Part shown: one piece after another, positions 2,285 through 7,239 of the stretch | Numbering within the stretch: the stretch's first letter is position 1 | How the letters are laid out: every line of letters starts with the position of its first letter | NCBI GenBank assembly: GCA_036874045.1 | Contig: CM072342.1 | Coordinates: forward strand, 3,742,501-3,806,500 | DNA length: 64,000 nt | From: Cymodocea nodosa | Lineage: Eukaryota; Streptophyta; Magnoliopsida; Alismatales; Cymodoceaceae | Direction of reading: 5' to 3' | Translations under genes and position numbers: made by a program | Notes under the pieces: model-generated | Seen by the model: only the letters and a program-made list of their open reading frames with translations | Told to the model about the DNA's origin: nothing | Database searches by the model: none

Positions 2285-3845
2285 TAATGCAAATGCGTAC
2301 TTCCATTCTTATATTTAAATATTGTTTCCTTAACTAAAACGATGACAATTACCTGTTTTCGTTTCGTAATTTTTTATTATAATTATTTAAAATATATAAT
2401 ATTTGGAATTTATTTACGCTTGTGTTTGTCAGTCACCACGGTCCGTGTTACTTTGCCCGATCTGCAAGCAAGCACACGGTGTGTTCTTGGGTGCAACACA
2501 ACCAGGACGCCCTGCTCTGCTGCAAGAAGGAAACCAACTCAAGAACGTACTGCTTGTGTTGCTTCATCATCACTCCATTCAAATTTCTCGGCTGCGTACC
2601 ACAAGTGCCATACATATACGTACGTATGTATGCATCTTCTTTGCCTTGTTCTTGGTTGTCGCTGTTGTTGTTGTTGTTGTTGTTACCTTATATCGTATGT
2701 GTGTGACATTATTTTCGGCTTAATTTCTTCCATTCCTTGAGCTAGCTTGCTGCAGTCGGGTTCGTGGCCAACTCGATTCTCCGGTGAAATCTTGATCTGG
2801 GAGGGAAGATCAATTTCCTTGGACTCTCACTTGGGTACGTGGTTAGCACCGTACTTCGAATTTCCCTACTTCGTTGCCATAACCAGTCAGTGATCTTATG
2901 CCCTTCTTGATCGCACATGCATGCGGCAGGAATGGCGGAATCTGACGATGAATCGGGAGAGCGCCCCAGCAGCAATCCGACGGAGATCCGGTTCCTCCCG
3001 TTGAACTGCGTTAGAAAGCTCATGAAGAAGGCACTTCCACAACACTCCAAGATTTCCAATCGCGCCAAGGAGACCGTCCAAGAGTGCGTGTCGGAGTTCG
3101 TAAGTTTCGTCACAGCCGAGGCAGCCGAAATGTGCCTGCGCGACAAGCGCAGGGTCATCAACGGTGACGACGTCATCTGCGCCCTGGGGACGCTCGGCTT
3201 CGGGGACTACGTCGAGCCCCTCGAGGTAACGTCCGCTTCTTGCACGCGTACCTACCTGTAACTTCCAAGCGTCACACCGAGTGTGTTGGATGATGTCCGC
3301 AGCGTTACCTTGCGATGTACCGGGCGACGGAGGGAAACAAGAAAAAGAGCAGCGCCTCCTCATCTCAGTCCCAGCAGAAAGATCGTAGCAGTGGCGGGAG
3401 TGTTGGAGACAACAGTGGCGGTTATGGTGCTGCGCCAGGGGATGGTGACGCTGCCGGAATGTACGGTGGTGCCATGACGATGGGTCAGCGGAAGCATGAC
3501 ATGCCGGGAGCACACCATACGGGCATGGGAGGTGGTAGCGCTAGAGCACACGCCACAAGCATGTTGGCGGGCGACACCGGAGCACACGACCCAGCAAGCA
3601 TGTTAGCGGGCGACGCCGGAGGACAGAAGGGAGAGAAGCAGCGCCGGAGCAAGCGGAGGCATGGTGGCCAGCACCACACCGACAAACGATCCAACAAGTC
3701 AGTGTGACCGGTGTCCCGTGATGGATCTCATCTTACCTTCGACATGTATTCATCAATCTAGCACTGAGCGTATAAGGATTTCCCTTTTTCTCTCTCGGAG
3801 CGTAAAGCATGGGCTTTATCAGTACGTACGAGTATTTCATGCACT
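2285..3845 (+). repeat. Tandem segmental duplication, copy A
   Basis: The promoter region, NF-YB gene and 3' flank of copy A match copy B (about 4965-7235) in the same order. Matching landmarks include TTCCTTAACTAAAACGATGA upstream (2326 versus 5005), the CTTATATCGTATGTGTG block before the leader, the leader text around GGGTTCGTGGCCAACTC, the coding exons, the 77-base intron and the 3' block CGACATGTATTCATCAATC (3738 versus 7148). Copy B is longer mainly because of the repeat array in its last exon. Boundaries are approximate. Confidence 0.8.
2932..3707 (+). CDS. NF-YB: Divergent NF-YB (CCAAT-box factor subunit B), short-tail copy
   Basis: This gene encodes a histone-fold subunit expected to pair with NF-YC and, with NF-YA, bind CCAAT boxes in the nucleus. 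Exons are 2932-3225 and 3303-3707; the 77-base intron is GTAACG...CCGCAG in phase 0, and the product is 232 residues. The histone fold spans roughly residues 25-107 and keeps [16 protein letters not shown] and [18 protein letters not shown]. It departs from typical plant [14 protein letters not shown] replaces LPIANVSRIM, Asn stands in KISN where most copies have Lys and LEC1 types Asp, and the Trp of LLWAM is replaced (VICAL). The C-terminal half is Gly/Ser-rich, has about three copies of the 12-residue motif that fills its neighbour (3519-3626), and ends in a basic stretch. An upstream ATG at 2917 is in frame, but it lies inside a likely leader intron (donor 2835, acceptor 2929), so 2932 is preferred. 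Confidence 0.85.
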
Positions 3846-3869: not shown

Positions 3870-4960
3870 GGAGGAGCAGGCAGATCTGCATGAACGTGCG
3901 CAGAAAGAAACTTCAACACCTGTATTAATAAAGAATGACATACAGAATTGTGATGATTGTCATGATATTAAGTTAGTTAATAAATCACCCAATAAAGCTT
4001 AAAACATGGGTAATTGAACAAAGATTACGACATAACCATGATCGTAGAAAATCAAGTTAAATTTAAGAAAGTCTGAACAACAATATAAACTATTAACCTA
4101 TTAATGGAAAATTTTAGATTTAGGGAAAAGAACCTTTATATATTATTCGTTTACAACAACAATCCAAGCTAGAATCCTACTAATCTTTTCTTCTGCATGT
4201 ATGTTTATCTATTCATATAGTGTTGATTGATCTGAAAAAATGTTATGACAAAGAACCTAAAAGTGGTTATATTCTTGTATGAGAATATAACCACGCCAAA
4301 CATACTTCAAATCATACTGAATGCACTTTAGCTACATATGTGGCATGTTTCTGTATTGTCAAACAAATTAAATAAGAATCAACAGGATGTGCATTATTGC
4401 TAATTCTTGCCGGTTGTTTACTGACCGCACAAAGATGACAAATGCACATTGTCTGTGTTGCAAAGAATGCAAATCAAATCTGCAATGCCGTTCCATTTAC
4501 TCTTATAGCATTTTGTTACTACTCTTCCATGCAAGAAAGATATCACCTTAGCTCCTGGGTGCCTTAACAACAATGCCCAAACCTAAATGGACTGAATTCA
4601 AAACACATAATGGACTCAACTCTTGTTACGACTGATGACATTCTGTTAATCTTCATATTTTGCAACGTCAAACTGACAAATAAGCTCCGCCAAGGAGATG
4701 ATGATAATCAAGCTACTTCACATGGATATGTAAACAAAACATCCTAATAATGATGATACTTCAGAAATGACGGCAAGGTATTCGTTGAAGACGATTGATC
4801 AAGACCACTTCTTAGAATTAGTTGGAACCCAACAAACGGATTGTTAGATTTGGTGGTGATAAATTAATTACAAGGAAAACGAGATCAGAGAACTCATTCA
4901 CCATTCTGATGCCTAAAAGACTTGAAAATTAAAATTCAACGGATTTTCTTAATATAAACT
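3870..4960. other. Intergenic spacer between the NF-YB copies
   Basis: AT-rich sequence with no convincing reading frame, RNA gene or recognisable transposon. It is not part of the duplicated segment as far as I can see. Confidence 0.5.
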
Positions 4961-5379
4961 ATTAAACATTCGAGATTAGGCATTCATATATTTAAATCCT
5001 GTTTCTTTAACTGAAACGATGACAATGATGTAACTATTTTCATTTATTAATTATCCCATGTATGCATGCATGCAGCTTCTTTGCCATGTTCTTAATTGGT
5101 TATTGTTGTTGTCGTTGTTGTTACCTTATATCGTATGTGTGATATTATTTTCGGGTTAATTTCTTCCATTTCCTGTCGCTCCTTGAGCTTGCCGCAATCG
5201 GGTTCGTGGCCAACTCAATTCTCCGGTGAAATCTTGAACTGGGAGGCAAGATTAATTCCCTTCAACTCTCACTTGGGTGCGTAGCTTGTATTCATCAGGA
5301 CGGTGCTTCGATAATCCCTATTTCGTGGCGTGAATCGATGATGTCATGCCCTTCTTGATCACACATGGATTTGGCAGGA

Positions 5380-7061
5380 ATGGCGGAATCTGACCATGAA
5401 TCGGGAGAACGCCCCAACATCAATCCGACGGGGAGTAGCGACCGCACATTGCCGCAAGAGCAGGACCGGCTCCTCCCGTTCAACAGCGTGAGAAAGGTCA
5501 TAAAGAAGGCACTTCCACGACACTTCAAGATTTCCAATCCCGCCAAGGAGGTCGTCCAGGAGTGCGTGTCGGAGTTCATAAGGTTCGTCACCGCCGAGGC
5601 AGCCGAAAAGTGCCGGCGAGAAAAGCGCAGGACCATCAACGGTGACGACGTCGTCTGCGCCCTGGGGACCCTCGGCTTCGAGAAGTACGTCGAACCCCTC
5701 GAGGTAACGTCCGCTTCTTGCACGCCTACCACCTGTAACTTCCAAGTCACACCGAGTGGGCTGGATGCCGTCCGCAGCTTTACCTTCAGAGGTTCCGGGA
5801 GATAGAGGCATACAAGAGCGGCGCCTCCTCATCACAGTCCCAGCAGAAAGATGGCAATAGTGGCGGGAGTGGTGGAGCCATGAACATGGGAAGCAACAGC
5901 GGCGGCTACGGTGCTGCACAAGGGGATGGAGACGCTGCCGGAATGTACGGTGGTGCCATGATGATGGGCCGGCAGATGAATGACCTGCTGGGAGCGCCAT
6001 CGTATCAACACTGCACGAGCATGAGAATGGGCGTTGGCGGATCATACGACACGAGCATGTTGGCGGGTGTTGCCGGAGCATACCACACAAGCATGTTAGG
6101 GAGCGATGACAGAGCACGCAACACGAGCATGTTGGCGGGTGTTGCCGGAGCATACCACACAAGCATGTTAGGGAGCGATGACAGAGCACACAACACGAGC
6201 ATGTTGGCGGGTGTTGCCGGAGCATACCACACAAGCATGTTAGGGAGCGATGACAGAGCACACAACAAGAGCATGTTGGCGGGTGTTGCCGGAGCTTACC
6301 AGACAAGCATGTTAGGGAGCGATGACGGAGCACACAACTCGAGCATGATAACGGGTGGTGTCAGAGCACACCACACGAGCATAGGAGTAGGCGTTGCCGG
6401 TGCGCATCACACGAGCATAGGAATTGGCGTTGCCGGAGCGCATCACACGAGCATAGGAGTGGGCGTTGCCGGAGCGCATCACACGAGCATGTTAGCAGAC
6501 AGTGCTGGAGCACATGACATGAGCATGTTAACGGGCGGTGTTGAAGCACACCATACGAGCATGTTTGCGGGCGGTTCAAGAGCACTGGACACTAGCACGT
6601 TAACGAGCAGTGTTGAAGCAGACCACACGAGCATGGGAGTAGGCGTTGCCGGAGCGCATCACGCGAGCATGTTAGCAGACAGTGCTGGAGCACATGACAT
6701 GAGCATGTTAGAAGGTGGTGTCGGAGCACACCACACGAGCATGGGAGGGGGCAATGCCGAAGCATACGACCCGAGCATGTTAGCAAGCGCTGCCGAAGAA
6801 TACGACTTGAGCACGTTAATGGCCGATGTCGAAGCATACGACTTGAGCATGTTAATGGGCGATGCCGCAGCAAGCGACAAGAGCATGGGGCTGGGCAATG
6901 CTGGAGCATGGGACATGAGAATGATAACGGGCGATGTCGAAGCACACCACACGAGCATGGAAGAGGGCAGTGCCGGAGCACACCAGACGAAGATGGGAGA
7001 GGGCGATGGGGGAGCAAGTGGAACCATGTTCACCGACGATCTTCTAGTGATCACGCCGTGA
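5380..7061 (+). CDS. NF-YB: Divergent NF-YB with a giant 12-residue-repeat tail
   Basis: Second NF-YB copy, 535 residues; family members usually have about 150-250. Exons are 5380-5703 and 5778-7061, with a 74-base phase-0 intron. The histone fold (about residues 34-142) keeps [21 protein letters not shown] and LGFEKYVEPLELYLQRFRE. It shows the same kinds of departures as its neighbour: LPFNSVRKVI, Asn in KISN, and Cys where Trp is usual (VVCAL). A Gly/Met-rich linker leads to residue 188, where 28 consecutive 12-residue units begin (6015-7022, residues 188-523), followed by TMFTDDLLVITP and stop. The start at 5380 (MAESDHES) matches copy A; an ATG at 5365 probably lies in a leader intron (donor 5277, acceptor 5377). 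The fold suggests a CCAAT-complex subunit; the role of the tail is unknown. Confidence 0.85.
6015..7022 (+). repeat. 36-bp coding minisatellite, 28 units
   Basis: Counting through the translated exon gives 28 tandem units of exactly 12 residues with no insertion or deletion in 1008 bases. The commonest forms are TSMLAGVAGAYH, TSMLGSDDRAHN, TSIGVGVAGAHH and TSMLADSAGAHD. Position 2 is almost always Ser and position 3 usually Met; units often end in HH, YH, HN or HD. Units 2-9 form a 72-bp higher-order repeat (alternating AGVAGAYH and GSDDRAHN types) with near-identical DNA; later units are more diverged. All frames of both strands are long and open here, simply because the period is divisible by three. 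Confidence 0.95.
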
Positions 7062-7239
7062 ACTGAACCAGGAAGTCAGGGTGGGATATGAACGGTGTCC
7101 TATATATGATGGATCTAACTGCGTATTCTCATGTTGATCTTACTTTCGACATGTATTCATCAATCTAGGACTGAGCGTATAAGGAAGCATAAAGCACTGG
7201 GCCTTATCAGTATAGTATGATAAGAATACACTACGTACA

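Follow-up and report, generated by a model that had tools for sequence, protein, structure and literature searches.

In PRDM9, the repeated units of the array are folded zinc fingers, and selection acts at their contact residues. The gene described here (gene A), which lies in a 64,000-nucleotide stretch of DNA that we call the window, encodes an NF-YB protein with a long repeat tail; it is like the PRDM9 array in its in-frame units of constant length, in having recent identical units beside diverged ones and in its fast evolution, but its units, in contrast to zinc fingers, match no known domain by Pfam or by sequence comparison. A second comparison comes from the NF-Y complex itself, where repeat number in the polyQ tract of NF-YC9 is described as tuning CO/NF-YB2/NF-YC9 condensates (PMC11696179). 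As there, the repeat in gene A is carried in a tail, and both proteins are NF-Y subunits. The tract in that report, however, is polyQ, belongs to NF-YC and has a tested function, whereas the repeat here is a 12-residue unit in NF-YB with at most a putative function. Within the limited collection of literature searched, no publication was found that joins NF-YB with a minisatellite or with an amino acid repeat.

Gene A is read on the forward strand. Exon 1 (5380..5703) encodes the N-terminus together with the greater part of the NF-YB histone fold, and is followed by a 74 bp GT..AG intron (5704..5777) that interrupts the fold at the same position as in a tandem paralogue (B), in the canonical NF-YB copy of this genome and in a further duplicate on C12. 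Exon 2 (5778..7061) encodes the last helix, the Gly/Ser-rich NF-YB tail, the array and a short end with the stop codon. The spliced open reading frame gives a product of 535 amino acids from the ATG at 5380, which is the start that aligns with that of the canonical gene, or of 540 amino acids from an in-frame ATG upstream at 5365. The fold is recognized by Pfam (PF00808, 72.4 bits). Its best match among solved structures is NF-YB2 (6r0m, E = 2e-32), compared with 3e-13 for NC2 beta; judged by sequence, it is an NF-YB fold, nearer to NF-YB than to NC2 or to other histone folds.

Gene A shares with plant NF-YB2/NF-YB3-type subunits (6r0m, 7cvq and 7cvo) and with the canonical copy (L001) the histone fold, an N-terminus of the form MA(D/E)SDxESG, a Gly-rich tail with a Met-rich stretch and the glutamate of the VSEF motif. 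It differs from the canonical copy in that only 60 of 91 fold residues are identical and in its tail of 28 units, and from the four NF-YBs compared in that 14 of their 54 shared positions are altered. The VSEF glutamate, which we take to correspond to E65 of Arabidopsis NF-YB2, is retained in both A and B. Binding of NF-YA is reported to require E65 of that protein (E65R; PMC5157953). Pfam also returns a phospholipase D motif (PF00614), at 24.5 bits against a cut-off of 21.9. The active-site motif of phospholipase D is HxK...D; the matched stretch, GAYHTSMLGSDDRAHNTSM, has no lysine and we therefore judge this match to be due to chance.

The array itself (6015..7022, forward strand) consists of 28 tandem units of 36 bp, each coding for 12 residues; 25 of the 28 units are distinct, and there is no indel and no in-frame stop. 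It accounts for 336 of the 535 codons of the two-exon gene in a single open frame, while the other two forward frames contain 27 and nine stops. The original prediction of an NF-YB with 28 consecutive 12-residue repeats of unvarying length is thus borne out, as is its statement that the tail is abnormally long for an NF-YB: the canonical protein of the same genome has 182 residues and no array. Tandem Repeats Finder delimits the array at 6014–7016, with a period of 36, 27.9 copies, 70% matches and 0% indels, and the mean pairwise identity between units is 69%. An antisense open reading frame of 333 amino acids (5359–6360) is read as a by-product of the array.

Units 2–9 (6051..6338, forward strand) are arranged as four 72-bp dimers, and since units 2, 4 and 6 are identical to each other, as are units 5 and 7, they represent a recent expansion. 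Units 13–14 (6447..6518, same strand) are a near-copy of units 18–19, with 34 and 35 of 36 bases in common, and stem from a separate block duplication. Recent and old duplications are therefore found side by side, as in minisatellites, and the array has the features of a coding minisatellite in being made of tandem units in the range of about 10–100 bp, with a length that is a multiple of three, inside an open reading frame and with recent identical units among them. Identical units such as 2, 4 and 6 or 5 and 7 belong to the type of region that assemblers miscount, so that the number of units could be inflated or wrong. With 25 of 28 units distinct, however, the whole array is no assembly loop, and we consider such an artefact hardly credible.

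The window corresponds to C14:3742501-3806500 of a genome of 374.6 Mb (28 contigs), which its genes suggest to be that of a plant. Searched against this genome, the DNA of the array gives two matches, its own locus in A and, at 73% identity, 127 bp of B, which argues that the array is not a chance occurrence. The protein sequence of the tail gives three matches genome-wide at E ≤ 1, one in A and two in B. A comparison by sequence with solved structures yielded no match to the repeat units at E ≤ 1. This last result bears on whether the 12-residue period reflects a fold of the β-solenoid type, a fold that would account for units of constant length. The conservation of small and apolar positions and the location of the array on the compact side of the charge–hydropathy plot (0.489 versus a boundary at 0.439) would be in line with such a fold, but columns rich in replacements, among them 5 and 7, fit it poorly and, together with the lack of structural matches, make it very improbable.

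We consider it probable, though far from certain, that the array is a coding minisatellite, with its frame kept and its sequence mostly free, in the final exon of a divergent, tandemly duplicated gene of the NF-YB2/3 type. The history of the array is suggested by the other NF-YB copies of the genome. Searching the genome with the histone fold returned 11 exon-wise matches. The canonical copy on C17 lacks the repeat, and its intron occupies the equivalent position. The C12 duplicate (L022, C12:18668712-18669314, minus strand) is a divergent protein of 172 amino acids that has an SSSQxQQ tail motif in common with A and B. Its C-terminus is GAPSYHHKMSMD followed by the stop, that is, one seed-like copy, and its DNA can be aligned with that of A as far as the first TSM in the array. 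In the C12 duplicate 18 of the 54 shared fold positions are altered, including Q35V and E36H (91-column numbering), and hence this copy is also evolving fast.

Paralogue B (2932..3707, forward strand) lies in the same orientation as A, with its start 2.4 kb further upstream. Its exons (2932–3225 and 3303–3707) encode 232 amino acids counted from 2932, and its intron (3226–3302) lies at the equivalent place and has GT..AG ends as in A. B has three units of 36, 39 and 36 bp (3519..3629, forward strand), the middle one with an extra codon; which units of A they correspond to is ambiguous in the unit comparison. At the end of the array (3615..3707, forward strand) B is a net 8 bp shorter than A, with nine bases lost and one gained, and as a result the sequence of B that is homologous to the last unit of A is out of frame. 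The frameshifted C-terminus of B (3615–3707) is a new Lys/Arg-rich stretch with a composition resembling that of a nuclear signal. Beyond the coding sequence, A and B remain homologous in the 5' flank and in part of the 3' UTR. A stretch of 49 bp in the 3' UTR (3730–3778 in B and 7137–7185 in A) is 96% identical, while the wider 3' UTR aligns poorly.

Within one genome the tails thus range from zero units in the canonical copy through one seed-like copy on C12 and three units in B to 28 units in A. From these states the array probably grew stepwise, although the C12 copy may alternatively once have carried an array and then lost it. In the scenario that we prefer, a C-terminal seed of the form GAPSYxHxxSM probably predates a segmental or whole-genome duplication and would have given rise to a few 36-bp units before the tandem duplication that separated A from B. 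A would then have expanded to 28 units by in-frame unit duplication, partly in the form of 72-bp dimers, an expansion that never breaks the frame because the unit length is a multiple of three. A 0-1-3-28 series on related NF-YB genes in a single genome would allow the origin and expansion of a coding minisatellite to be traced stage by stage.

The original prediction had described frame and Ser/Met at positions 2 and 3 as strictly preserved and had taken this to suggest that the tail is under selection. The frame is indeed preserved (zero stops and zero indels), but 'strict' is a slightly too strong word for the residues, with serine retained at position 2 in 26 of 28 units and methionine at position 3 in 23 of 28. 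Diversity among units is 0.309, 0.351 and 0.278 at codon positions 1, 2 and 3, respectively. A codon model on the unit tree (M0) gives ω = 0.998 (F3x4) or 0.933 (F1x4), neither of which differs from 1, and pooled unit counts give dN/dS = 0.96 (bootstrap 0.60–1.76); these values come from a tree that ignores gene conversion and from units of 12 codons that offer few synonymous sites. The ratio between units is therefore indistinguishable from neutral. Such a ratio is half of what the original prediction had named as speaking against it, the other half being frame-breaking length variants in other individuals and the lack of a transcript over the array; in the same genome, a frame-breaking change is present at the array end of B.

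By column, rates on the tree are low for Ser2, Met3 and Ala10, whereas columns 5 and 7 are fast and rich in replacements. Ser2–Met3 is the most conserved adjacent pair of codons, and in 2000 simulations under a homogeneous neutral model it is matched in a fraction of only 0.001 after correction for scanning. At the serine, silent and replacement sites alike are frozen (pS = 0.010 and pN = 0.088 in pooled counts), and so its conservation cannot be put down to the protein. Ala10, on the other hand, has a true silent excess (pS = 0.354 versus pN = 0.080). Column 11 has ω > 1 on the tree, yet pS > pN in the pooled counts, and because of this disagreement we give it no weight. Diversity varies among the 36 sites beyond what is seen in most simulations (P = 0.02), while third positions taken alone give P = 0.78. 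The claim of selection on the tail thus finds partial support in the kept frame and the Ser–Met pair, and is not supported for the tail sequence at large.

Neutral simulations produce on average 3.7–4.0 units with stops; among 400 runs 9%, and among 2000 runs 11%, contained no stop at all. The absence of stops from the array is consequently not rare under neutrality (P = 0.09 and 0.11), which suits an explanation that takes A and B for duplicates that are not expressed or are in decay, with the frame still open because the duplication is young. The gaps between A and B are harder to reconcile with decay. Upstream of the array, the coding gaps measure 30, 15, 6 and 12 bp (the last taken from protein alignments) and are multiples of three in four of four cases, whereas only one of the seven gaps in the 5' flank and intron (6, 10, 2, 2, 4, 1 and 2 bp) is a multiple of three (one-sided Fisher p = 0.015). 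The GT..AG ends of the intron are also kept in both genes. Within the array of B there is one gap of 3 bp, and the net 8-bp change at its end is no multiple of three.

In the array of A, about 14 indels would be expected from the seven gaps per ~55 differences in the 5' flank and intron and the 108 parsimony changes among units, against zero observed; this yardstick is small, and the 3' UTR was omitted from it as poorly alignable. These observations favour a frame constraint on A, although unit turnover may also weed out odd lengths. Constant unit length is the default behaviour of a 36-bp minisatellite. Strict unit length was therefore rejected as sole proof of selection, a 36-bp unit being in register by default. 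A scan of 213,116 bases for other arrays with at least three copies and a period of at least 15 yielded just two, one of 3.7 copies with 16% indels and one of 3.0 copies with 0%, too few for a comparison. Constant unit length plus one conserved motif is no proof by itself of selection on a repeat tail. Drift alone is nevertheless an incomplete account, as conservation of the Ser–Met pair and of Ala10 exceeds that under the neutral model and 28 units are free of any indel.

Three observations, 28 units without stop or indel, the Ser–Met pair and the silent excess at Ala10, would be in keeping with a tail that is a selected, multivalent low-complexity module in which 28 Ser-Met/Gly-Ala/His units make weak contacts that tune NF-Y condensation and in which the number of units is under selection. 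The tuning of condensates by repeat number described for the NF-YC9 polyQ tract (PMC11696179) provides a precedent. The overall ω close to 1 speaks against it, as does the shortage of the usual drivers in the array, which has ten aromatic residues (F, Y, W), eight Q/N and 11 K/R among its 336 residues. The charge–hydropathy plot moreover places the array on the compact rather than the disordered side, and B has just three units and a frameshift. We therefore regard a selected module of this kind as rather unlikely. Our preferred reading of a coding minisatellite with a mostly free sequence would make the tail most likely a loosely constrained low-complexity appendage in which length and openness outweigh the individual letters. 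More speculatively, and doubtful in our own estimation, length and open frame of a transcription-factor tail might be selected with the sequence nearly free, so that unit number would serve to tune, quickly and in steps, an NF-Y complex that has newly begun to diverge; Ser–Met and Ala10 would then be its few stickers under constraint. Should the number of units differ from plant to plant, these plants would provide a natural length series with which to ask whether NF-Y tails tune transcription.

In the histone fold, too, the ratio is close to neutral. In the core, 28 of 86 codons differ between A and B, 22 of them nonsynonymously, and dN/dS over 88 codons is 1.50 (NG86) or 0.93 (ML). For the short N-terminus the corresponding values are 1.05 and 1.37, and for the pre-array tail they are below 1 (0.43 and 0.72). 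Purifying selection on the fold, a usual property of NF-YB proteins and not a defining feature, was not found on the A and B branches: their joint ω of 0.79 is not different from 1 (2ΔlnL = 0.23), compared with a rough 0.07 elsewhere in the tree (2ΔlnL = 21.9). A model with five free ω values fits better than the joint A + B model (lnL = −1013.63 versus −1021.44) and gives estimates of 16.6 for A, 0.49 for B, 0.87 for the A/B stem, 0.24 for the C12 copy and 0.03 for the rest, while freeing A alone or B alone drives ω to its bound of 20. As the short branches are inseparable and the outer ones saturated, we use only the joint A + B value and call that of 0.07 rough.

Distances between A and B (K) are 0.071 for the intron, 0.122 for exon 1, 0.186 for the 5' flank, 0.197 for the pre-array part of exon 2 and 0.493 for the poorly alignable 3' UTR. 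The exons have thus diverged no less than the intron, although exon 1 has diverged less than the flanks. Of the 54 positions common to the four NF-YBs, 14 are altered in A and 18 in B. Near-neutral ω in both fold and array, exons no slower than the intron, the altered NF-YB positions and the frameshift at the array end of B would all suit unexpressed or decaying duplicates. Against the in-frame gaps, the kept splice sites and the missing array indels, we nonetheless think it unlikely that decay accounts for the pair. Under the coding-minisatellite reading, A and B would be a fast-evolving pair, with repeats and fold at a near-neutral ratio and no frame-breaking changes in A, and A is most likely still translated and able to pair with NF-YC.

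The surroundings of the pair give an indication of relative age. Between 7983 and 55351 the window contains Pfam-recognized genes for an asparaginase, an SBP-box protein, a reversibly glycosylated polypeptide, a DPBB protein that by inference is expansin-like, an RRM protein, a COBRA-like protein and a 6-phosphogluconolactonase-type protein. The open reading frames of the SBP-box, COBRA-like and 6-phosphogluconolactonase-type genes, three of the seven, match the region of the C12 copy in inverted collinear order, this region being represented by 13 pieces that together cover about 130 kb around that copy. For the asparaginase, reversibly glycosylated polypeptide, DPBB and RRM frames, no match was found in these pieces at E = 1e-6. 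We read this collinearity as a putative segmental or whole-genome duplication followed by gene loss.

For six chosen segments of the three collinear genes, Ks (NG86) is 0.335, 0.374, 0.667, 1.352, 0.699 and 0.414. For A against B, the core has a dS between 0.105 (NG86) and 0.157 (ML), the pre-array tail one between 0.266 (ML) and 0.377 (NG86). Comparison of these values suggests that the tandem duplication is probably younger than the block duplication, with the tail dS overlapping the low end of the block Ks. Two NF-YB searches found no third NF-YB on the contig of A and B. A stretch of 339 bp between B and A (4431–4769) has a second copy of 90% identity some 7 kb further upstream on this contig (L024:4872-5202), perhaps left by another duplication.
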